Virus record (IMG/VR): IMGVR_UViG_3300022693_001279
Location: 1 to 20,565 of that record
DNA: 20,565 nucleotides
Origin: a virus
Reading direction: 5' to 3' (one strand)
The notes under the pieces were generated by a model. It was not told the DNA's origin and did no database searches. It saw only the letters and a program-made list of their open reading frames with translations. How positions within the stretch are numbered: position 1 is the stretch's first letter; each line of letters starts with the position of its first letter. This document shows positions 1,171-18,516 of the stretch, piece after piece. The position numbers and the translations under genes were made by a program.

Positions 1171-3024
1171 ATGGGTTTTACAGATACATTGCGTAACATA
1201 TTAAAAGGCAGAGTTAATGTAGATAAATCTTATACTGGTGGTACGGTAAGACCTTCAATCGCCCAACCTTATATGAGTACCGATACAGGTGCTAAACTAC
1301 CTATATTTCCATTTCCCTTAATAATGATTTATGAGTTGGCTGATAATATAGATGCCTTAAGAATACCAATAGAGACTATTAATAGAGAGATGTTTAAGAA
1401 TGGATTTGAAGTAGTTGAGCGTTTTACTTATAAATGTAATGACTGTTCTAAGGAATTTCAAAACAAACCAAACTCTGGAATAGAAGGTGAGGCTGATGCA
1501 GATATGATAAAGTGTGATTCATGTGGTTCCAAAGATTTAAGAAGACCTGAACCTCAACACCGCAAAATACTTGAAAACATGGTACATAACCCTGTCAATG
1601 GTAATGGTCAAACTATAGAAGACGTTACAAGACAATTAGAAAGAGACTTGGAAATAGCAGATAATGCATATCTTTTATTGTTAAAGAATTACTTCATTGA
1701 TGATATTACAGGTGAAATTAATCAAGAAAAGACCGAAATTAAAGAGATGTTGCGAATAGACCCTCCTCAAGTAGCTATGATTGCTGATTCAGATGGTAAG
1801 ATTGGTTATGATGATAAAAGACAAAAGATTTGGGTATGTCCAAGATTCGAGCACCGTGGTCATAGACTTTATTCAGACAGATGCGATAAATGTAACGCCC
1901 GTGCTTTAAAGGCTGTGCTAGAGGTAAACAGTGTTTATTCAGTCGGAATACCACAACCTAAACGTGTTATTTATGCTGAAGGAGAGATAATTTGGAAGGC
2001 AGGTAAATACAAACCAGCCCTCATATATGGATATTCTCCTATTTACTCTGTATGGTCAAAGGCTATGTCTTTATCACATATGGATGAGTATATACGAAAG
2101 TACTTTGATAAGATGAGACCGCCAAGAGGATTGCTCTTAATTGCTTCTCGTAACTATGAAACATTTAGAAAGTCATGGGATGCACTTGAACAGAAAGCGA
2201 TAGAAGACCCATACATGATACACCCACTAATGGTAGAGACAGATAAGGGTAGTAAAAACATGGCACAGTGGATGGACTTTACTGGTTCATTACAGGAATT
2301 ACAATTCGTTGAAATTAGAAAAGAACTTAGACAAGTTATAGGTGCTATTTTTGGAGTATTGCCACTTTACTATGGTGAAATGGTTGGTGGATGGTCACAG
2401 GAAGGGTTACAGGTTACAATTACTAACAGAGCGGTTAAATGGGGTCAGGACATTTTGTATAAAGCCTTCTTTAGAAGAATTTGTGATGTAATGGGTATTG
2501 ATGATTGGGATTTAAAGTTAGTTGCAGGTGAAGAGAATGATAAACTTAGAGAACTACAACAGGAAGGACTTGAGATTGATAATATGGCTAAACTACAACA
2601 GATGGGATTTGGTATATCGATGACACATGGTGGAGAGTTTAAAGTTTCTAAAGAACCAACTATACAAGAAGATTTAAGTCTAGGAAGAGGTAGAGGTACT
2701 GCTGCTCCTAAAGACCAACAACAAAACTTTGACGGAGAACCAGTGTTGGCAAGACCTTCTGATATAGGTGGTGTTGCACAAGGATTCCCAGCAAGTGGTA
2801 GTGGTACATCAATGTCAAAGAAAAACTACCCTGATGGTATAACACCTTCTAACTTTGAAGTTGTTAAAAACACTTTACAATCTGCAATAGACTTTGGATG
2901 GTCTAAAACTAAAACTGTTGATGAACTTAGAAAGCATAGTGCTATGACGGTTAGAAGTGCTAGAGAATTAGTAAAGAATGAATTTGAAAATATTAGGAGG
3001 TGGGAAGACGAAGATGAAAAGTAA
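1171..3024 (+). CDS. Portal protein
   Basis: 617 aa. The portal forms the dodecameric ring at one capsid vertex through which DNA is packaged and ejected. The central and C-terminal part has the usual portal pattern: a GYSPIYSVW segment (about residue 288), a long helical stem region, the MRPPRG stretch, and the helix around residues 395-430 containing YYGEMVGGWSQEG. Two Cys/His clusters are unusual: C89, C92, C115 and C118 (CxxC-x22-CxxC), and C223, H228, H231, C238 and C241. The C-terminal about 120 residues are low complexity (TAAPKDQQQN, GSGTSMSKKN) ending in a charged helix. The ATG is leaderless. The 3' end overlaps the next gene, whose SD lies inside this one. Terminase is not next to it, which is unusual. 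Confidence 0.85.
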   Translation: MGFTDTLRNILKGRVNVDKSYTGGTVRPSIAQPYMSTDTGAKLPIFPFPLIMIYELADNIDALRIPIETINREMFKNGFEVVERFTYKCNDCSKEFQNKPNSGIEGEADADMIKCDSCGSKDLRRPEPQHRKILENMVHNPVNGNGQTIEDVTRQLERDLEIADNAYLLLLKNYFIDDITGEINQEKTEIKEMLRIDPPQVAMIADSDGKIGYDDKRQKIWVCPRFEHRGHRLYSDRCDKCNARALKAVLEVNSVYSVGIPQPKRVIYAEGEIIWKAGKYKPALIYGYSPIYSVWSKAMSLSHMDEYIRKYFDKMRPPRGLLLIASRNYETFRKSWDALEQKAIEDPYMIHPLMVETDKGSKNMAQWMDFTGSLQELQFVEIRKELRQVIGAIFGVLPLYYGEMVGGWSQEGLQVTITNRAVKWGQDILYKAFFRRICDVMGIDDWDLKLVAGEENDKLRELQQEGLEIDNMAKLQQMGFGISMTHGGEFKVSKEPTIQEDLSLGRGRGTAAPKDQQQNFDGEPVLARPSDIGGVAQGFPASGSGTSMSKKNYPDGITPSNFEVVKNTLQSAIDFGWSKTKTVDELRKHSAMTVRSARELVKNEFENIRRWEDEDEK

Positions 3025-5219: not shown

Positions 5220-5228
5220 ATCATAATG

Positions 5229-5237
5229 TTTATTAAT
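5229..5237 (+). promoter_or_regulatory. TATA box for the protease gene
   Basis: TTTATTAAT, preceded by TAATG exactly as at the 9994 promoter. The core T is 28 nt before the ATG at 5259, so the protease probably starts there rather than at 5226. Confidence 0.45.
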
Positions 5238-5258
5238 GATACAGGTAAATTTATGTAT

Positions 5259-7487
5259 ATGAATAAAAAAGATGTAAATGAATTATATTTTTCAACGTTA
5301 GTTACAAAATCACTAGAACCAATCAATTCTGATGAAAGATATTTTGAGGGATATCTTACAGTCCAAATGAAGGATAAACAAGGAGAAATAACAATAGTAG
5401 ACGAATTATACAAGGTGTTACCTATATGGATGGATCGAGGTGCTCCTATATCTGATACTCACTCAAACAGGATTATAGGTAAAGGTATTAATTTTTCTAG
5501 AACTGTATACAAAGGAAAAGATGGAGAAGAACTTCCAGCAATTAAAATAACAGGTAAAATTTTTAAAAATTATGAATTAGATAATGATATTTGGGAAAAA
5601 ATTAAATCAGGAGAATATAAAGGATTATCATTTGGTGGAGCTACAAGAGCTGATAGGACTCCTATTGCAATGAAAGATGGTAGTGTTGCATATGCTCTTA
5701 AAGAATTAGAACATTATGAAGTCGCAGTGTGCAAAGACCCAGCAGTACCATTGGCATTAATTACAGATTACAATCCACTTGCAAAGGCATTTACAGGTAG
5801 TTCTGAAAGGAGAGACAAGGATAAACTAGTTATTAAATGTACTAAATTTGGATGTTATGTTAACAAGGTAAATCTATCAGAAGAAGATACATTTGAAGGT
5901 AAGGTAAGGAAATTACAAGCAGATGGTAAGTCAAGAGAGTCAGCAGAAAAAATAGTCGGTTCATTTGTAAAAGCAAATCCAGAAGGTGGAGAACAACATG
6001 GTATGACAAGTGCAGATGAGGATTTAATTGATTCAGAAACATCTGATCCTGCAAATCCAAATAGAAGAAAAATACATGATGTAGATGAAAGAGAGTTAGA
6101 GGCAAACAAAGCATGGAAATGTCCTAAATGTGATAAAGAATTTGGAGTTGCTGGACATAGTAGAGAAGGAGAACGATTTGAACATATAATGTCTCATGAA
6201 AAAGAAGGAAAAAAATATGCTGATAAGAATCTTAAAGAAATAAAAAAATATAAAATCATGGGTTTCGAAGGACAAAAATGTCCTCTTGGTAATTGTGAGC
6301 ATAAGGTTGGTGATTTTAAAAATTTTCAAGACCATATGAATACAACCCATCCACTCAAACAAGGTGAAGAAGGTGATGAGTATGATTACACGTTTTACCC
6401 TAAAGGTCACCAAAAAAATAAAACTAATGTTAAACTAACAGAAGGTGGAGAAAAAGTAATGGGAGAGGCTAAAGAATTTATTGCTAGAGATGAAAGAGGT
6501 AAAAAGATAGATGCATATAAACAATTTAAAGAAGTAGAACAAGAGAGTGGTACAGATCATTCAGATTCAGAAGGTGATAAACATCAAATGTATAATCAAA
6601 ATGCTGGTAAAGAATCATGGGTAGGTAATGGAAGTCCTTATCCTAAAATAGTAAAGACAGAAGAGTTACCAAATTCTAAAGATGAACAAGATGATATAAG
6701 TATTGAACATGCATCACATAATACACCAACAGAAGGTAGTAGATTAGGAAGTAAAGGTAAAAAATCTAAATATTATAAATTTATGAAGACATTGTTAGGT
6801 GACGCTAAAATAGCGAAAGATGCATTAGATCCAAAAGCAAAACCACAAGATGACCTTTTAGGAAATCCTAATACTGCACTTCCAAAAAATACAAGAGTTG
6901 GTCAGAAACCACCTAAGGTTCATGACCTTGGTGATACTGAAGAAGATTATGGAACTTTTGAACAATTAGGAAATCCATTTGAAGGAAGTACAACTAGAAT
7001 AACAGCACAAGGAATTAAAAACCAGAACAAACCACGAACACAAACAACTAATCCAGATGCAAAATATTATAAAAATCCAAAAGTAGGGAGGTCAGACGAT
7101 ACAAAACCTAGTTTTGATGATGAATTAAAATACAAATCTAAATATTATAAATTTATGAAGGCATTATTAGGTGGAGTTACAGGTAACGTAGGATTTCCTA
7201 AAAAACCAGCACTTCCAACTGAAGAATCTGACACTGAAAGGGCGAACAGGATTAACTCATCAAGAGGAGAAAAAGAAAAACCAGTTGTTGAAGGTGACGC
7301 ACAGTTAACTAGAAAAGGTATTTCTGGAAGTGGTTATGGTGGGGCAATTAGACATGCTGAACTACCATATAAGCAAGATCATGAAACTGCACAAGTTACA
7401 GAAGTTAAAGATGATAAAACAGAAAACAAGCACAAACTAACCAAATTAAAGTCAGGTATACTCATAAATATATTAAAAGCACTATAA
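5259..7487 (+). CDS. Prohead protease (XkdF-like) with long zinc-finger extension
   Basis: 742 aa from ATG 5259; the longest ORF starts at 5226 (753 aa), but the TATA box at 5229-5237 favours 5259. Residues 1-175 look like the XkdF-type capsid maturation protease: RYFEGYLTVQMKDKQGE, then DTHSNRIIGKG (candidate catalytic His68), YKGLSFGG (candidate Ser124) and LEHYEVAVCKDPAVP (His152). The remaining about 560 residues are unusual. They contain a C-x2-C-x17-H-x3-H finger (C288, C291, H309, H313), a classic C-x4-C-x12-H-x4-H finger (C341, C346, H359, H364), and long hydrophilic low-complexity regions with the motif KSKYYKFMK-x-LLG at residues 502 and 626. The protease makes up under a quarter of the protein; the rest may act as internal scaffold or be cleaved away. 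It sits directly upstream of scaffold and capsid, as usual. Confidence 0.75.
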   Translation: MNKKDVNELYFSTLVTKSLEPINSDERYFEGYLTVQMKDKQGEITIVDELYKVLPIWMDRGAPISDTHSNRIIGKGINFSRTVYKGKDGEELPAIKITGKIFKNYELDNDIWEKIKSGEYKGLSFGGATRADRTPIAMKDGSVAYALKELEHYEVAVCKDPAVPLALITDYNPLAKAFTGSSERRDKDKLVIKCTKFGCYVNKVNLSEEDTFEGKVRKLQADGKSRESAEKIVGSFVKANPEGGEQHGMTSADEDLIDSETSDPANPNRRKIHDVDERELEANKAWKCPKCDKEFGVAGHSREGERFEHIMSHEKEGKKYADKNLKEIKKYKIMGFEGQKCPLGNCEHKVGDFKNFQDHMNTTHPLKQGEEGDEYDYTFYPKGHQKNKTNVKLTEGGEKVMGEAKEFIARDERGKKIDAYKQFKEVEQESGTDHSDSEGDKHQMYNQNAGKESWVGNGSPYPKIVKTEELPNSKDEQDDISIEHASHNTPTEGSRLGSKGKKSKYYKFMKTLLGDAKIAKDALDPKAKPQDDLLGNPNTALPKNTRVGQKPPKVHDLGDTEEDYGTFEQLGNPFEGSTTRITAQGIKNQNKPRTQTTNPDAKYYKNPKVGRSDDTKPSFDDELKYKSKYYKFMKALLGGVTGNVGFPKKPALPTEESDTERANRINSSRGEKEKPVVEGDAQLTRKGISGSGYGGAIRHAELPYKQDHETAQVTEVKDDKTENKHKLTKLKSGILINILKAL
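6762..6788 (+). repeat. 27-nt direct repeat in the protease gene, copy 1
   Basis: Encodes KSKYYKFMK; identical at DNA level to 7134-7160, 372 nt (124 codons) away. Both copies are followed by x-LLG. Confidence 0.8.
7134..7160 (+). repeat. 27-nt direct repeat in the protease gene, copy 2
   Basis: Second identical copy of the unit at 6762-6788, in the same reading frame. It may be a duplicated binding or cleavage segment. Confidence 0.8.
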
Positions 7488-8155: not shown

Positions 8156-9376
8156 ATGGTTCAAATAAAGACAATCGATGAACTCGAAGCACTTTATTAT
8201 GGATATAATAGAAACCTAGTTCGAAAAGCAGATGCACCAGTAACCACATCAACGGTTGGTACATTTAATGCTATATTCGGTGCATACGCATGGGCTCAAC
8301 TCAACCTTGAAGCTAATGCTTTTGGTATATTACCAAAACATGCATGGGATAAATCTGGATTCAGGGTAATTACAGCAAAACCAACTCTTAACACCACAAA
8401 CGGTAATACTGTTTTAGGTGGAACAGCAGAAGGTGGGCTAATTGCTGAAACAATAAAGCCAACTTTACAAGAGATTGACATCAGACCAAAAACCGCTCAG
8501 TTGCCATTCAGTGCATCTGAAGTTATGGAATGGCTTGCAACTCACAGTAAAGACGATATTTGGGGTGGATTAGGTTCACTTCGACTATATATGGCAGTTC
8601 AGCATAAAGAATTCCTAAATAGAATGTTATTGGCAGACGTAGAAAGTGTCGCAGCAGCAGGTGGTACAAATACAGGTACTAATGACTTTGAATCATTGGA
8701 TAGAATTATTTCTTCCGATGCAGAAGAAGATTCATTAGGTGGATCTGGATCTGGTCACTATGATCCTTGGGCAGCAAATGCAACCGTAGACAGAGATGGA
8801 AACGGTGGTGAATTTGACTGTACTGTAGAATCCGCTTCAGGCACAATCGGTACAAATGGTGTACTTACTGACGATACTCTAAGAACTTTCTTACGAAAGA
8901 TTCGTATCGCAGCAGGTAAAGATCCAAATGTATTCCTAGGTTCACACGAAGTTTATTCCGAGATACAAGGCTTGTACATGCCTTCAGTCCGTATTCCAAA
9001 TCCATACGGTGAAGCACTAGTACAAATCGATGTAAATGGAATACAAACTTTCAAAGGAACTGGTGTAGGTATTCATGTAGATTCCATATATGGTATCCCA
9101 TTCATCCCAAGTAAGGATGCACCAAGTAATAGTGCCGACTCATCTGAGATCGGAAGACTATTTGCACTTGATACATCTGATGCAGAAGGATATGGTTATC
9201 CAAGAATCGGAATCTCCGTTGCAATTCCAACAGAGTATTACGAAGCAACCCGAAGAACTCCAGCATACCCATTCGTCAACAATGCATTTGTTGAGAAAGG
9301 TGTATTCAGAACTATGGGTGAAACCGTCTGTAGACATTTCAAGTCTCAAGGTAAAATTAGAGATATTAAACTCTAG
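8156..9376 (+). CDS. Major capsid protein (HK97 fold)
   Basis: 406 aa. HK97-type capsid proteins assemble as hexamers and pentamers into the icosahedral head. Supporting features: position after protease and scaffold; an N-terminal helix; an E-loop-like stretch at about residues 65-110 (FRVITAKPTLNTTNGNTVLG, then EGGLIAETIKPTLQEIDIRP); the long spine helix at about 120-165 (SASEVMEWLATHSKDDIWGG, RLYMAVQHKEFLNRML); and a P-domain ending in a receptor-like beta segment (GIPFIPSKDAPSNSADSSEI, then YYEATRRTPAYPFVNNAFVE). It contains a Gly/Ser insertion at about residues 195-235. It is probably co-transcribed with the scaffold (1-nt gap; GAGGAG at 8137-8142, AGGA at 8145-8148). The codon choice is the most C-ending in the window. 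A T9 tract and an unusual palindromic region follow. Confidence 0.85.
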   Translation: MVQIKTIDELEALYYGYNRNLVRKADAPVTTSTVGTFNAIFGAYAWAQLNLEANAFGILPKHAWDKSGFRVITAKPTLNTTNGNTVLGGTAEGGLIAETIKPTLQEIDIRPKTAQLPFSASEVMEWLATHSKDDIWGGLGSLRLYMAVQHKEFLNRMLLADVESVAAAGGTNTGTNDFESLDRIISSDAEEDSLGGSGSGHYDPWAANATVDRDGNGGEFDCTVESASGTIGTNGVLTDDTLRTFLRKIRIAAGKDPNVFLGSHEVYSEIQGLYMPSVRIPNPYGEALVQIDVNGIQTFKGTGVGIHVDSIYGIPFIPSKDAPSNSADSSEIGRLFALDTSDAEGYGYPRIGISVAIPTEYYEATRRTPAYPFVNNAFVEKGVFRTMGETVCRHFKSQGKIRDIKL

Positions 9377-11939: not shown

Positions 11940-12911
11940 ATGGTTCGAACTGGTAGTAGCACATATGTAAAGTATGGTTGGGAATCATCATACGGTGGTT
12001 CGGCAACAATAGATAAGAAATTTGGTCTACAAGACTCTCTTAATTCTTGGACATTAACTCATAATAGAATGGATTTACCAGCATTAAATCAATTAACAGT
12101 AGACGAATATGCTTATGGTCAACAGCAAGGCTCAATAGGGGTGGATTTCACTCTAAGTAATCCTTGGATTTTTAAATCAATTTTAGGTACTGGTTCAGTC
12201 ACAGGTTCTTCTGCTCCTTACACTCATACTTTTCCACATGCTTCAAACGGTATTAATAAAACACCAACAACATTTTCAGTTGAAGTAGGTTTTGACGATT
12301 CAACTAATATAGTCAGAACATTAAAAGGATGTGTGACAGATTCATTAGCAATTAATACTTCGGTAGGAGATTTAGTTTCTGCAACAATATCAGCAACATA
12401 TGGTAAAGAAGATGCTCCAAGTACATCTCTATCAGCACCAAGTAAACCAGTAGTAGAATTTCCATACACATTTGCACATGCAAGACTAAAATGGAGTGGA
12501 AGTACTGTAGCACAGGTACAAGACTTGTCACTTACTATTGCACAAAATACAACATTATTATATGGATTAAATTCACACCAAGCAGTTGATTCTTACAGAC
12601 AACTCTTGGATATTACAGGTTCTTTTAGAGCATCCTTGGTCAATAAAGACTTATTAGAAAATATGCTTGAACAAGTTAAAGCAGGGTCATCATCTGGTAC
12701 TTATAGTTCAACTGTAGGAGGTTCTCCTGAATTAGAGATACTCTTTAGTAAAGACAGTGGTGAAGAGATTAAAATTACTGGTACTGGGTTGGCACCATCA
12801 GACCTCGCTTGGGATGGTATTAGACCAAACGAACCAGTATTTGAGAATGTTAACTGGAGATTTAAATCAATTACAATAGCAGCAAAGAATAACCAGTCAG
12901 CAGCAGAGTAA
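11940..12911 (+). CDS. Major tail tube protein
   Basis: 323 aa. Tail tube proteins stack as hexameric rings to form the hollow tail. The sequence begins SSTYVKYGWESSYGGSATID, a common opening of tube proteins, and is beta-rich with recurring pairs: SIGVDFTLSNPWIFKSILGT, TTFSVEVGFDDSTNIVRTLK, GCVTDSLAINTSVGDLVSAT, VQDLSLTIAQNTTLLYGLNS and LDITGSFRASLVNKDLLENM. The phrase GCVTDSLAINTSVGDLVSATISA is typical of this family: two similar beta-sheet halves in which the first half defines a function-specific strand swap. It lies between tail terminator and tail chaperones. No sheath gene follows, so the tail is non-contractile. Confidence 0.8.
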   Translation: MVRTGSSTYVKYGWESSYGGSATIDKKFGLQDSLNSWTLTHNRMDLPALNQLTVDEYAYGQQQGSIGVDFTLSNPWIFKSILGTGSVTGSSAPYTHTFPHASNGINKTPTTFSVEVGFDDSTNIVRTLKGCVTDSLAINTSVGDLVSATISATYGKEDAPSTSLSAPSKPVVEFPYTFAHARLKWSGSTVAQVQDLSLTIAQNTTLLYGLNSHQAVDSYRQLLDITGSFRASLVNKDLLENMLEQVKAGSSSGTYSSTVGGSPELEILFSKDSGEEIKITGTGLAPSDLAWDGIRPNEPVFENVNWRFKSITIAAKNNQSAAE

Positions 12912-12951: not shown

Positions 12952-13299
12952 TTGGCAATTAAGACGTTTGAGATTAAATTTGAAGGTAAAAAAGAAATAA
13001 TTGAGTATGAGGATGATTTAACTTTCGGAGAACTTGAATCTATTTTAAATGAAACAGTAGATATGTCTGATGTTACAAAACCCAAAGTAAATATACCTAA
13101 ATACAGACAACAAATTTTATTAAAAGTAGTAAAAAAAGCACCATTTAAGACAGGTGATTTAGTAGCAATCAGGAACATGAGGTCGAGCGTGGCAAAACAA
13201 ATCTTGGAGGGGGTTATGATTGATTTCCCTTTAGCGAAATACTTGGAGGATTGGATGGTAACCTTCGTAGGGTCGGAAGTCGCCAAGAATCTACGTTAA
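12952..13299 (+). CDS. Tail assembly chaperone, G-like
   Basis: 115 aa from a TTG start fixed by the TATA box 27 nt upstream. Chaperones of this type (lambda gpG) coat the tape measure during tail assembly and are not in the virion. The opening is TFEIKFEGKKEIIEYEDDLTFGE in pieces, i.e. a strand pair followed by an FGELESIL helix, then IPKYRQQILLKVVKKAPFKT, a pattern common to short chaperones before tape measure genes. Its last part overlaps a second ORF in the -1 frame, with the slippery heptamer at 13224-13230. It is the unshifted product, expected to be the more abundant form. Confidence 0.7.
   Translation: MAIKTFEIKFEGKKEIIEYEDDLTFGELESILNETVDMSDVTKPKVNIPKYRQQILLKVVKKAPFKTGDLVAIRNMRSSVAKQILEGVMIDFPLAKYLEDWMVTFVGSEVAKNLR
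13206..13230 (+). promoter_or_regulatory. -1 programmed ribosomal frameshift site
   Basis: The heptamer T TTC CCT (13224-13230) has the X XXY YYZ form in the frame of the G-like gene. Tandem slippage re-pairs TTC to TTT (both Phe) and CCT to CCC (both Pro). It begins immediately after the last upstream stop (TGA 13221-13223) of the -1 frame. An SD-like GGAGGGGG (13206-13213) lies 10-13 nt upstream, the distance at which internal SD sequences stimulate -1 slippage in dnaX and IS elements. Downstream, CTTGG (13242-13246) can pair with CCAAG (13283-13287) around an ACCTT/AGGGT hairpin (13261-13273). The sequence elements are seen; use of the site is inferred. Confidence 0.7.
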
Positions 13300-13451
13300 C
13301 AGTATATTATTTTTGTGCTAAAGAGTTTGGTTGGACAAAGTCACAGGTAGATGAATTACCCATAGATTACCTTAAAGGTCTTTTATACATACATAAAAAG
13401 GCTCAAGACCGTACCTTGAATATTCCACCATTACCCAAGAAACTTAAATAA
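13230..13451 (+). CDS. Tail assembly chaperone T domain (frameshift extension)
   Basis: The -1 frame segment read after slippage adds 73 residues, giving a G-T fusion of about 166 aa from the TTG at 12952. Its hallmark is CAKEFGWTKSQVDELPIDYL followed by KGLLYIHKKAQDR, typical of the T part of G-T chaperones, which links the complex to the tail tube protein. Independent initiation at TTG 13251 (66 aa) is unlikely: GGAGG is only 1 nt away, there is no promoter, and the segment is fully open back to the slippery site. It is followed by 21 nt and the tape measure gene, the canonical arrangement. Confidence 0.7.
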   Translation, partial: FSEILGGLDGNLRRVGSRQESTLTVYYFCAKEFGWTKSQVDELPIDYLKGLLYIHKKAQDRTLNIPPLPKKLK

Positions 13452-13472: not shown

Positions 13473-15971
13473 ATGGTAAAGAAAGAAGTTGATTTTATAG
13501 GCAACGCACAAGCTTTGGATGCAATAGGAAAAGCCCTTCAGACAATGGCAAAAAATGCATCAGGTTTTAGTGATAAGCTTGCAGAGGTAGAAAAGTACTT
13601 AAAAAATATTCAAAAATTGATAAAAGTTGTAGAGGTACAAAAGGCAATAAATATTGACAAAGGTCTTAAAGAATTAACGAGAAGGATGGAACAAATGACT
13701 AATGAGAGTTTAAGATTAGGAGAAAAAACCAATAATTACACTAAAAGGTTAGACGAGAGAATTCAAAGAGAGACAAAAGCATATGATTTAAGAAATGATA
13801 TGATGCAGGAAAGAATGAGATTAGATAATTCACTTAAGAGAGGTCAAGAACAACAAAGAGCAGATAATATTATGGCACACTCAAACGCCATATCAGAAAG
13901 AAGACTAAAAGAAGAAGAAATGAAAACAGGTAGAGCACGTACAAGTATGATTAAAAAAATAATGGGAGGTTTTGCAGGAGGTGATTTATTTGGTGGTTTA
14001 GAAACAGGTGCAGGTCTAACTGTAGGTGCAGGAATGACTGGAGCAGAACTGGGAGGAGAGAGAATAAAGGAAGGATTTGGCGTTAGTAAAAGAATATTGA
14101 ATTTTCAAAAAGGAATTTCTGGTGGAGGTGAAACATCAATAGGAACACCAATAGGATCACCTTTAAATAAAATTGGTTCAATGCTTTCAAAATTTCCTGC
14201 TTTACAGAAAGCAGTGGGTGGAGAAAAAGGTTCAGAAGGAGGAGGCATTATGGGTAAGGCGGGAAAAGGTGCAGGTAAACTAGGAGGTATTGCACCATTA
14301 TTAGCAGGAGGTGCAGCAGGATTGATAGGTGGAATAATAATGAAAGGTTTAGAATCATCTCCAATGTTTAAGGCTATGTCAAAAATAATAGGACAGGCAT
14401 TTAGTTTATACTTGAGACCTATAGGAGATTTAGTAGGAGGTGTATTCAAACCACTTATAGTACCAATGATGAAGATGGCAGCAGCCAACGCAAAAGCAGG
14501 TTCTAAATTGATAAAAACAGGAGAAAATATTGGTAAAGGATTAGTAGCGGTATTCAGTAATCCAGCAGGATTTATTAATGCAGCATTATTAGATGCGGTT
14601 GATGGTATGCATGTAGCAATCTCTGAAATGTTACATCCTGTATATGTAGCATTAAATTCATTGACATTTGGTTTTGCTGCAATCCCAGAAAAATTTATGG
14701 GAACAGAAAATAGATTAGGAGACTTTATTGATGATACATATGCAAAGTGGGTAGCAGACATTGACGCAGCATTTGGATCAGTAGTATCTTCTGGTGAAGA
14801 AACAACAAAAGTAATATCAGGTATAGGCTCAACTATTGAAACAGGTCAAGATAAAGCTAATGAGATTTTAGAAAAAACATATACCGTACTTGGAAAGGAA
14901 ATGGCTGGAACACCGTATGCAAGATCAGAAGCAGGACAAGCAACTGGTTTATTTGATGAAGAGGGCAACTTAATTAAAGAAGAGTTAGAAAATGCAGGCA
15001 CCATAATAGCAACAACAATAGATGGTGTGGAATTAACTCTTACCAAATCTGCTATAGACACTGCGAATGAAGCAAGTGAACAACTCACTATTAACAGAGG
15101 CACAACCGCAACAACCGCAGTAATAGCAGCCATGTTCGAGCAAGCAGCAATTAACATTAAAAAGAGACTGGATGCATTAATTGCAAAACAAATAAAAGTT
15201 AGAACAACCACAGATTCGACAGGAAAGACAACAATAGGTAAGGCAGATGCGGATTTACTCGTTTCACAGAAAGGGATAGAAGAGGATGGATGGAGTGCAG
15301 GTGGTGAAGCATTCAAACAACAATATGCTAGCGTATCAGGTGCAATGGTAATCGCAAATAGAACAGACTCAATAGAAAAACAAAGGAAGTTCATGGAACA
15401 AAAGGTCAATATGGATGCTAGAAAGTATGCACTTGACCAGAATAATGTTAGTGAAAGGATCGCAGTGTTACAGTCACAAGCGTTTGCTGGTACTATAAGT
15501 TGGGAATATTATAACAAAACAATTACCAAACTAATTGAAACCGCTCTAGGGTCTTCAGGAAACATCAATATATCAACCGAAGGTGCAAGTATATTAAGAG
15601 CTGTTCAAGCAGCGAAAGACAAAGGAATATTAGGACATACAAAACAGAATCAATTTAGAACTGCTTATTCTACAGCAGATGCTTTAGGTGATAAGTCAGG
15701 TAAACAAGATGCAATGAATTTGTTAAATCCTGAGAGAATGGCAGAAGGAGGTATTATTAGCGAACCTATATTCGGGATAGGAAGAAGTGGTAAGAGTTAT
15801 TTATTAGGTGAGTCAGGAGCTGAAAGAATTACACCTCTTAAAAGTTCAGAAGGAGGAGTTAATGTAGTAATTAATATAGCAAAAATGTCAAATACTGTAG
15901 ACTTGCAACAAATTAAACCAATAATTGAAAGGGCATTACGTGAAACACATTCTAGGAGAGGTATAATCTAA
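13473..15971 (+). CDS. Tape measure protein
   Basis: 832 aa. It fills the tail tube and sets tail length; at the usual about 0.15 nm per residue this predicts a tail near 125 nm. Residues 20-155 are long charged coiled coil (DKLAEVEKYLKNIQKLIKVV, then KELTRRMEQMTNESLRLGEK). Gly/Ala-rich hydrophobic stretches follow at about 165-195 and 270-292 (APLLAGGAAGLIGGIIMKG), which could insert in the host membrane at ejection. The C-terminus has the family hallmark GGIISEPIFGIGRSGKSYLL, GESGAERITPL, then a strand-helix ending (VNVVINIAKMSNTVDLQQIK). A TTAAATAAT element 29 nt before the ATG may be a promoter. The stop overlaps the next ATG as TAATG. Confidence 0.85.
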   Translation: MVKKEVDFIGNAQALDAIGKALQTMAKNASGFSDKLAEVEKYLKNIQKLIKVVEVQKAINIDKGLKELTRRMEQMTNESLRLGEKTNNYTKRLDERIQRETKAYDLRNDMMQERMRLDNSLKRGQEQQRADNIMAHSNAISERRLKEEEMKTGRARTSMIKKIMGGFAGGDLFGGLETGAGLTVGAGMTGAELGGERIKEGFGVSKRILNFQKGISGGGETSIGTPIGSPLNKIGSMLSKFPALQKAVGGEKGSEGGGIMGKAGKGAGKLGGIAPLLAGGAAGLIGGIIMKGLESSPMFKAMSKIIGQAFSLYLRPIGDLVGGVFKPLIVPMMKMAAANAKAGSKLIKTGENIGKGLVAVFSNPAGFINAALLDAVDGMHVAISEMLHPVYVALNSLTFGFAAIPEKFMGTENRLGDFIDDTYAKWVADIDAAFGSVVSSGEETTKVISGIGSTIETGQDKANEILEKTYTVLGKEMAGTPYARSEAGQATGLFDEEGNLIKEELENAGTIIATTIDGVELTLTKSAIDTANEASEQLTINRGTTATTAVIAAMFEQAAINIKKRLDALIAKQIKVRTTTDSTGKTTIGKADADLLVSQKGIEEDGWSAGGEAFKQQYASVSGAMVIANRTDSIEKQRKFMEQKVNMDARKYALDQNNVSERIAVLQSQAFAGTISWEYYNKTITKLIETALGSSGNINISTEGASILRAVQAAKDKGILGHTKQNQFRTAYSTADALGDKSGKQDAMNLLNPERMAEGGIISEPIFGIGRSGKSYLLGESGAERITPLKSSEGGVNVVINIAKMSNTVDLQQIKPIIERALRETHSRRGII

Positions 15972-16507
15972 TGCCAGCAGAAGTAGTCGAGATACGTTCA
16001 TTTAAAACAGATAAGAAATACCGTTATCTAGTAAGAAATATTCAATCATTAGATATACAATTAACAAGTCAGGTTTCAACCACACCCTTACCATTAATGG
16101 GTGACAATAATAATGTTCTCACAAAAGCAGATGGTAACTCAGTACGTATATCATTATCTTGGATTTTACATGACGAAGACGATGACATAGTAGTAGCTAA
16201 TAATTATAATACAGAAGGTACAACAGTAGGTGGAGGAACAAGTCCATATGGTTTTGGTTCAGATTCAGGGGTGAGATTAGCAGACAGTCAAGTTAAATTT
16301 TTAATTAATAATCAATTAGAGTCGGGCTCAACACAATCAGGATTTCAGGCAACATATTTGGATGATGTTTATCAGATTATTATAGGAAATATAGGATTTT
16401 CAAGAGTGGGTCTAATTGAATCCTTACAAGTATCAAAATCTGGAGATAAACCAGTAACTTGGAGTGCAATGTTATCATTCATAGCAGGTGACGTTGTTAC
16501 AGCATGA
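15971..16507 (+). CDS. Probable distal tail protein
   Basis: 178 aa, beta-rich: KKYRYLVRNIQSLDIQLTSQ, SVRISLSWILHDEDDDIVVA, and a C-terminal pair IGFSRVGLIESLQVSKSGDK then PVTWSAMLSFIAGDVV. A Gly/Ser-rich loop occupies the middle. A strong SD, AGGAGAGGT (15954-15962), lies within the end of the tape measure gene, and the gene overlaps both neighbours (TAATG, ATGA). The slot between tape measure and hub is that of Dit proteins, which form the ring joining tube and hub. It is shorter than typical Dit, and a tube-like initiator ring is the alternative. Confidence 0.5.
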   Translation: MPAEVVEIRSFKTDKKYRYLVRNIQSLDIQLTSQVSTTPLPLMGDNNNVLTKADGNSVRISLSWILHDEDDDIVVANNYNTEGTTVGGGTSPYGFGSDSGVRLADSQVKFLINNQLESGSTQSGFQATYLDDVYQIIIGNIGFSRVGLIESLQVSKSGDKPVTWSAMLSFIAGDVVTA

Positions 16508-18516
16508 CCCACATATTAAAAATCATTAAAAATAGAACAACTGAAATAACACTTTTATCAGCAAACCTTAAAAAAGAAGGAGACAGGGGTATAGACCAAG
16601 CTCAATTTAATACAAAAAAAACAGAATCAATATCAGTTAATGATAGAATTGAGTTGATGTTTGATATTATTTCACTTGAAGGACTTGTAGGTTTTTATGG
16701 TTTTCAAGGAGGAATCAAAGATGAAAGTACAAAACAGAATCATGGTACTGCTACAAATATAACATATCAAAGAGAGGCAGATTTTTATGGAGATGAGGCA
16801 ATATTTAATGGTACAAATTCATTCGCATCTGTGAGTGATGATGATGATCTTGACTTATCTGGACAGTTTGACATCATAATGTGGGTTAAATGGTTAAGTA
16901 CAACTGAACAGTTTTTACTATCAAAACGTTCAAGTACATCAAATGGGTTTGCATTATCTGTTAATGCTTCTACAGCAGGAGATGTTAAATTTTCAATAGG
17001 CTCAGACACATTAACAAGTAGTTCAAGTTCATTCAATAATGGAGATAAACATCTTATAAGAATTAAAAGAGACTCTAATAACTTAATAACATTATATGTG
17101 GATGATACAAGTGTAGGAACAGTTACAAGTTCATACAATCCGACAAATACAGAGTCAATGTTAATAGGAAAGGATTACGGTGGAAGTTTCTTTAACGGTT
17201 ATATGTTAAGGCTCAGAATATACAAAGGTTATAATAAAATAGATAGTAATATAACTAAATTATATGGAGAAATCAATCCTAGAACACTCTTGAAATTCGG
17301 TGGGTTTGTAACAAAAATAGATATAGAACTTGCAATTAAAAAAGTAACCGCACAAAGTTATGGAAAAATATTAGCAGAAACTGATGTAAGAGGAGAAAAT
17401 TATGATGGTAAGACAGTTGAATATATTGTAAATGACTTAATTACAAGTAACACATCTTTTACTTTTAGTGACAGAAACTCTCCATCAGGATTAATAATTT
17501 CAAAATTTGTAGCGGATGGAAAAATTATTGATATAATAAGAGATTTTGCAAATTTCACTAATAGGGTATTTTATACAACAGCCAACGAAGAGTTTTTTTT
17601 CGAACCAGTAAGTTATAATTATGTTTCATCTGTATTCACACATGGTACTTCAGGTGCAATTATAGAAAAATCAGCACTTGATGATACACAGTTAGTTAAT
17701 TCAATCACATTATTAGGTGAGGTGTTAGAATATAAACTCGTAGAAACATTTAATGGTAATAATAGTAACAAGAACTTTGTATTAATAAATACTGCTATCA
17801 TGATTGAAGTTCAACTTGGCGGGGTTGTTCAAGAACCAGATGTTGACTATGAAACAGATTCTTTAAATAAAGAAATAATATTTACAACAGCACCACCGAC
17901 TGGAACTAATAATATTTCAGTAGAATATTATTATGAAATACCTATTACGGTAAAAGGAACAAAACAAAGCAGTATAGATACATACGGAATACATTCAAAA
18001 AAATTCAATTTAGATTGGATTAGTAACAGAACAGATGGTGTAAGGTTTATACAATCATACCTAAACAGGTACGGAACTGTAAAACAGAACATATCAATGA
18101 GATTTGGACAGCCTATATTATATTTAAATGAAAATGATGTCTTAAACGTAGTTAATGATTTTTTAGATATATCTGGGAACTTTGCTGTAAAATCAATCGA
18201 ATGGTCATATCCTGACCTAAATACAGAAGTGATTGTTGGTGAATACAGATTTGATTATTTTGAAGATGACAAGGAAATTGTCAGAAAATTACATGATTAC
18301 GAATCATCAATTACCAAATCAAAGGAGATACAGGATTATGAATCACCTGAGGAAATACTTACATTAACAGACATAGTCATACAGTATATTATAAATATAT
18401 ACACAGAAACCTTAAATATTTCAAATACGACAGTTATATATGATAAAACTAATAATAATTATGGGAGTGGAACATATGGAAGTAGAGTCACAGGGAGTGT
18501 GTATGTAAGTGAATAA
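16504..18516 (+). CDS. Tail hub protein (Tal/gp27-like) with inserted LamG-like domain
   Basis: 670 aa. Tal/gp27-type hubs close the tail tip as a trimer. The N-terminal barrel begins SVNDRIELMFD (residues 44-54) and resumes at LLKFGGFVTKIDIELAIKKV (about 260-280). Between them sits an about 185-residue insert with concanavalin/LamG signatures: LEGLVGFYGFQGG, NHGTATNI, AIFNGTNSFASVSDDDDLDL, FDIIMWVKW, HLIRIKRDSNNLITLYVDDT and MLRLRIYKGY. Hub features follow: YDGKTVEYIVNDLITSNTSF, IIDIIRDFANFTNRVFYTTA, FNLDWISNRTDGVRFIQSYL. A Thr/Ile-rich tail ends in GSGTYGSRVTGSVYVSE. It is coupled by ATGA, with AGGTGA 12 nt upstream. The insert is a candidate glycan-binding module at the tail tip. Confidence 0.7.
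   Translation: MTHILKIIKNRTTEITLLSANLKKEGDRGIDQAQFNTKKTESISVNDRIELMFDIISLEGLVGFYGFQGGIKDESTKQNHGTATNITYQREADFYGDEAIFNGTNSFASVSDDDDLDLSGQFDIIMWVKWLSTTEQFLLSKRSSTSNGFALSVNASTAGDVKFSIGSDTLTSSSSSFNNGDKHLIRIKRDSNNLITLYVDDTSVGTVTSSYNPTNTESMLIGKDYGGSFFNGYMLRLRIYKGYNKIDSNITKLYGEINPRTLLKFGGFVTKIDIELAIKKVTAQSYGKILAETDVRGENYDGKTVEYIVNDLITSNTSFTFSDRNSPSGLIISKFVADGKIIDIIRDFANFTNRVFYTTANEEFFFEPVSYNYVSSVFTHGTSGAIIEKSALDDTQLVNSITLLGEVLEYKLVETFNGNNSNKNFVLINTAIMIEVQLGGVVQEPDVDYETDSLNKEIIFTTAPPTGTNNISVEYYYEIPITVKGTKQSSIDTYGIHSKKFNLDWISNRTDGVRFIQSYLNRYGTVKQNISMRFGQPILYLNENDVLNVVNDFLDISGNFAVKSIEWSYPDLNTEVIVGEYRFDYFEDDKEIVRKLHDYESSITKSKEIQDYESPEEILTLTDIVIQYIINIYTETLNISNTTVIYDKTNNNYGSGTYGSRVTGSVYVSE

Follow-up and report, generated by a model that had tools for sequence, protein, structure and literature searches.

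A predicted programmed -1 frameshift at an invariant CCCTTTA heptamer, downstream of an internal Shine-Dalgarno-like element, in the tail chaperone genes of marine and most likely thaumarchaeal viruses

Programmed -1 frameshifts in the tail chaperone genes of archaeal viruses have been published for HVTV-1, HCTV-1, HCTV-2 and HCTV-5 (Pietila 2013 and Sencilo 2013, as reviewed in PMC5009743 and PMC8211752), with GGGAAAC given as the shift site of HCTV-1, AAAAAAC as that of HCTV-2 and GGGAAAG as that of HCTV-5 (PMC5009743). We recovered all three sites in the haloarchaeal virus records, and a joined tail assembly chaperone coding sequence was found at the same place in HCTV-1, HCTV-2, HCTV-5, HVTV-1 and HCTV-16. 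Demonstrated archaeal -1 frameshifting rests on very few cases. In this study, we analysed IMG/VR record IMGVR_UViG_3300022693_001279 from position 1 to 20,565 (20,565 bases, hereafter the window). Comparison with homologous loci strongly supports the -1 frameshift in an archaeal tailed-virus tail chaperone that a preliminary description of this DNA had proposed, and we regard the locus, with a probability of about 0.93, as a programmed -1 frameshift that would produce a G protein and a longer G-T tail assembly chaperone fusion. The occurrence of the shift, its efficiency and its tRNA steps are what we infer from the sequences.

The window carries two overlapping ORFs, in the 0 and -1 frames, between a tail tube gene and a tape-measure-like gene, which is the G/GT layout. 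The same order of tube, chaperone and tape measure is found in HCTV-1, HCTV-2, HCTV-5 and HVTV-1. The features of the locus are as follows.

11940-12911, + strand: tail tube protein gene (Pfam Phage_tube_2, E 7e-18; relatives in HCTV-1, HCTV-2 and HCTV-16)
12952-13299, + strand: ORF1, G-like tail assembly chaperone (115 aa, TTG start, 0 frame)
13206-13217, + strand: internal Shine-Dalgarno (SD)-like element GGAGGGGGTTAT, with the conserved register AGGGGGTTAT at 13208-13217, ending 9 nt before CCCTTTA
13224-13230, + strand: TTTCCCT, in the ORF1 frame, overlapping the CCCTTTA site
13227-13233, + strand: candidate slippery heptamer C CCT TTA, the sole copy in the 20,565-base sequence
13227-13451, + strand: ORF2, T-like domain in the -1 frame, a conserved protein, entered by the proposed shift
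13242-13287, + strand: proposed CTTGG/CCAAG hairpin (CTTGG at 13242-13246, CCAAG at 13283-13287), not supported
13473-15971, + strand: tape-measure-like protein gene (832 aa), so named from position, length and composition only

Sequence and profile searches found no family match for the tape-measure-like ORF. The -1 frame is open for ORF2 from 13224 to 13451, and its last stop, TGA, lies at 13221-13223. The elements named in the preliminary description, GGAGGGGG at 13206-13213, TTTCCCT, the TGA and the CTTGG/CCAAG pair, are all present as it gave them. Its further statement that the heptamer starts right after the last -1 stop holds for the window and its nearest relative and fails for the other relatives, in which the -1 frame opens 18-78 nt earlier. 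Elsewhere in the window, the portal protein encoded at 1171-3024 has an insertion with CxxC motifs that resembles a zinc ribbon. The gene at 5226-7487 encodes 753 aa, with weak Pfam matches to a prohead protease in the N-terminal part and, in one stretch, to a C2H2 zinc finger, and the gene at 16504-18516 encodes a large tail-module protein with an inserted laminin-G/concanavalin-like domain (Pfam Laminin_G_3, E 1e-11).

Homologues were collected from IMG/VR by searches in which the heptamer played no part, and the tube protein gave 58 loci, a G-T alignment 77 and a tube alignment 64. The results showed that, relative to ORF1, ORF2 is in the -1 frame in 32/32 distinct loci of a first set and in 47/47 of a second set, the two sets overlapping each other. 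The part of ORF2 beyond ORF1 had a median dN/dS of 0.22 across 18 pairs of relatives. These results correct the gene annotation of a marine archaeal virus group in which the T half is easily overlooked.

The identity of the products was examined by structure and profile comparison. In BFVD, the AlphaFold model of G (pLDDT 86) gave modest matches (prob 1.00, best E 5e-5, TM about 0.5-0.6) to proteins annotated as tail assembly chaperones, one of them from Haloarcula hispanica tailed virus 2, and T gave a weak match to a tail assembly chaperone family in PHROG. G and T each matched a protein of an 'uncultured archaeal virus' (A0A1S5Y368 and A0A1S5Y388, neighbouring accession numbers). No match was found for G in the PDB by sequence or by fold, for G or T in Pfam, for the G-T protein among named phages by tblastn, or between G-T and the HCTV-1 chaperone by profile comparison. 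By its likeness to lambda (PMC5009743), the pair probably has a chaperone function in tail assembly.

To locate the slip site, we compared 66 distinct homologous contexts. CCCTTTA was invariant, in frame and within the ORF1/ORF2 overlap, in 66/66 contexts, and was kept even in L198, a distant relative whose tube protein is 41% identical. TTTCCCT, which starts three bases 5' of CCCTTTA and which the preliminary description had taken as the heptamer, occurred in only 3/66; in 58/66 contexts TAC precedes CCT and breaks it, while both ORFs persist. The loss of the heptamer from homologues that keep both ORFs, which that description had named as an argument against its model, is thus real for TTTCCCT and does not occur for the overlapping CCCTTTA. 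We also scanned the whole of IMG/VR for the peptide pattern (E/G)V(M/L)KDYP(L), leaving the Pro and Leu codons free. This codon-degenerate scan returned 60 matches, 38 of them distinct, and every one read TAC CCT TTA. Among 37 sequences non-redundant at 90%, CCT and TTA were both fixed, whereas the other invariant residues nearby, except Trp, vary in codon; across the genes of the window, CCT makes up 34% of Pro codons and TTA 50% of Leu codons. CCCTTTA is the conserved X XXY YYZ heptamer in the overlap that is expected of the G/GT class, and the comparison indicates that the true slip site is CCCTTTA at 13227-13233 rather than TTTCCCT. A shift at TTTCCCT, during which tRNA-Phe would occupy the P site and tRNA-Pro the A site, would use a formally valid in-frame X XXY YYZ directly after the -1 stop, and given its distribution we consider it very unlikely; TTTCCCT is possibly an accessory slip site in the three viruses that have it. 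Another candidate considered was a shift further upstream, after which dual coding (Pro-Leu and Pro-Phe) would itself force CCCTTT followed by A or G. In the window the -1 frame opens only 3 nt before CCCTTTA, and the relatives with TAC have no slip heptamer just 5' of it. Literature searches found no description of CCCTTTA as a shift site.

We then asked whether ORF2 could be translated on its own, either by re-initiation or from a TTG, GTG or ATG that stands 24 nt 3' of the heptamer. An NTG codon does stand at this position in most loci, because the 0-frame residues there are (E/D)W. The results showed that 7/47 loci have CTG at this position and lack any ATG, GTG or TTG 5' of the T core, and that L198 has none of these codons in the whole of ORF2. 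Since an independent start would also leave the invariant heptamer and the fixed SD spacing unexplained, we regard it as highly improbable, and the comparison indicates that an own start for ORF2 is excluded in general. The separate start that the preliminary description had listed as counter-evidence was accordingly not found. A fusion mRNA made by transcriptional slippage appears more improbable still. Some other overlapping gene pairs are known to use slippage (PMC5009743), and nothing in this locus points to it specifically; polymerase slippage usually takes place on a long homopolymer, the conserved site has only runs of three, and the conserved SD register implicates the ribosome.

The region upstream of the heptamer was analysed for pairing with the 16S anti-SD AUCACCUCCU. 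The results showed that the register AGGAGGTGAT ends exactly 9 nt 5' of CCCTTTA in 35/37 non-redundant sequences, and that in 36/37 no other stretch of the preceding 150 nt pairs more strongly with the anti-SD, so that the upstream SD noted in the preliminary description is borne out. Mean pairing energy 8-10 nt before the heptamer was about -10.7 kcal/mol, compared with about 0.1 elsewhere. The spacing to CCCTTTA is 13 nt when counted from the GGAGG core and 9 nt when the count starts where the extended archaeal SD ends. SD spacings of 8-11 nt have been summarised as stimulating -1 shifts (PMC6321510), and the element, lying within this range, is a putative stimulator. One could suppose that the shift is real and that the SD-like stretch, which falls within the codons of a conserved (E/G)V(M/L) motif, is a mere by-product of the peptide without stimulating effect. 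This appears unlikely, as codon choice under the register is forced, with GAG for Glu in 23/23 cases (22% elsewhere) and GGG or GGA for Gly in 14/14 (the P values for this bias treat related sequences as independent). Moreover, A-to-G changes in the element keep the anti-SD pairing (AGGGGGT), the register is fixed though the encoded amino acids differ, and GGAGG is likewise found 10 nt 5' of GGGAAAG in HVTV-1 and HCTV-5 (L264:2430-2471 and L263:2078-2119, respectively). HCTV-1 has GGGGAG 8 nt before GGGAAAC, and HCTV-2 has only a weak SD match. Judged from these few genomes, internal SD elements may be widespread at archaeal tail-chaperone frameshift sites.

An SD in such a host had been called unusual, which proved half right. 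Moderate SD matches precede 7/18 gene starts checked in the 20,565-base sequence, and the Nitrososphaeria SD consensus is listed as AGGAGGUGA (PMC10783764). The starts at 8156, 10934, 15971, 16504, 18509 and 18977 have a moderate SD, and those at 1171, 5226, 7549, 9577 and 12952 have none. It seems that one virus combines starts led by an SD with starts that are SD-less or leaderless.

The proposed downstream hairpin was not conserved. Across the 37 sequences, the 3' flank was folded over three spans, with mean z-scores of -0.17, -0.09 and +0.03; it was no more stable than shuffled sequence, and no shared fold was found 3' of the heptamer in this analysis of local hairpins. That no downstream structure was found is a point against the shift model, as many -1 sites have one.

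In the mechanism that we propose for the programmed -1 frameshift, the majority of ribosomes would end at the ORF1 stop and give G (115 aa). At C CCU UUA, a fraction would move back by one base while the 16S anti-SD pairs with the SD-like stretch, whose register ends 9 nt upstream; tRNA-Pro, in the P site, would pass from CCU to CCC, and tRNA-Leu, in the A site, from UUA to UUU. Re-pairing in the P site would be favourable, the change from CCU to CCC improving the pairing with a GGG anticodon, and in the A site UUU would keep two pairs with a UAA anticodon; these anticodons follow the general picture of archaeal tRNA sets. Alternatively, tRNA-Pro alone would slip, after which Phe would be inserted. 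The HIV site U UUU UUA shows a like A-site behaviour, with a mix of Leu and Phe (PMC5009743). The slipped ribosomes would translate ORF2, and their product would be a G-T protein about 166 aa long. If the pair works as gpG/gpGT do in lambda, G would cover the tape measure and T would bring in the tube protein.

Evidence on the host comes from the relatives. AmoC genes (187 aa) were present in 3/13 long relatives (G003, G007 and G011); in G003 the gene stands between the major capsid gene, immediately 5' of it, and the next structural gene (L141:1597-2160). In one relative, a capsid gene at most two genes away from AmoC was clearly homologous to that of the window. These AmoC proteins score far below the bacterial AmoC cut-off and, judged against an archaeal AmoC sequence, are probably of archaeal type. 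The best named relatives of the portal, capsid and tube proteins belong to haloarchaeal viruses, mainly to the Druskaviridae, and genome-contig scans with the portal protein or the G-T alignment found no provirus relatives. Tailed viruses of marine Thaumarchaeota that carry amoC have been described (Ahlgren 2019, as cited in PMC8651126). The hosts are most likely marine Thaumarchaeota, a conclusion drawn from amoC in the relatives because the window itself carries none.

An unchanged heptamer and an SD at fixed spacing in 66 distinct contexts form strong comparative evidence, and the locus offers a compact cassette for asking whether SD/anti-SD pairing acts in elongation on a thaumarchaeal (TACK-type) ribosome. 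We lean towards the reading that the pull of SD/anti-SD pairing during elongation would be the main or only stimulator on thaumarchaeal ribosomes, at a Pro-Leu CCCUUUA site unreported for archaeal viruses, and that internal SDs would be general in archaeal tail-chaperone frameshifts.

Compared with known systems, the locus is closest to those of the haloarchaeal viruses HVTV-1, HCTV-1, HCTV-2 and HCTV-5, with which it shares the place after the tube gene, the -1 direction, the two products (predicted here) and an archaeal host (a probable one here), as well as distantly homologous portal, capsid and tube proteins. It differs from them in the slip site (CCCTTTA versus GGGAAAC, AAAAAAC or GGGAAAG) and in their haloarchaeal hosts, and similarity between the chaperones is undetectable; a conserved SD is not mentioned for them in PMC5009743 or PMC8211752. 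Lambda G/GT and its relatives in bacterial tailed phages share the layout, the -1 shift and the likely tail-assembly chaperone role, while lambda has another heptamer and the present locus a strongly conserved SD-like element. The -1 shifts of E. coli dnaX and of IS elements likewise have an upstream SD, active at 8-11 nt (PMC6321510) compared with 9 nt for the putative stimulator here, whereas dnaX uses A AAA AAG with a downstream hairpin (PMC5600365) that was undetected in the present locus. Saccharolobus solfataricus fucA1 (PMC8211752) shares a -1 shift on an archaeal ribosome, as predicted for the present locus, but is a cellular gene with A AAA AAT, a putative stem-loop and a single intact frame in most relatives. 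On this comparison, what would be new here are the heptamer, apparently the host phylum, the lack of a detectable downstream structure, the internal SD at fixed spacing and the demonstrated strict conservation.
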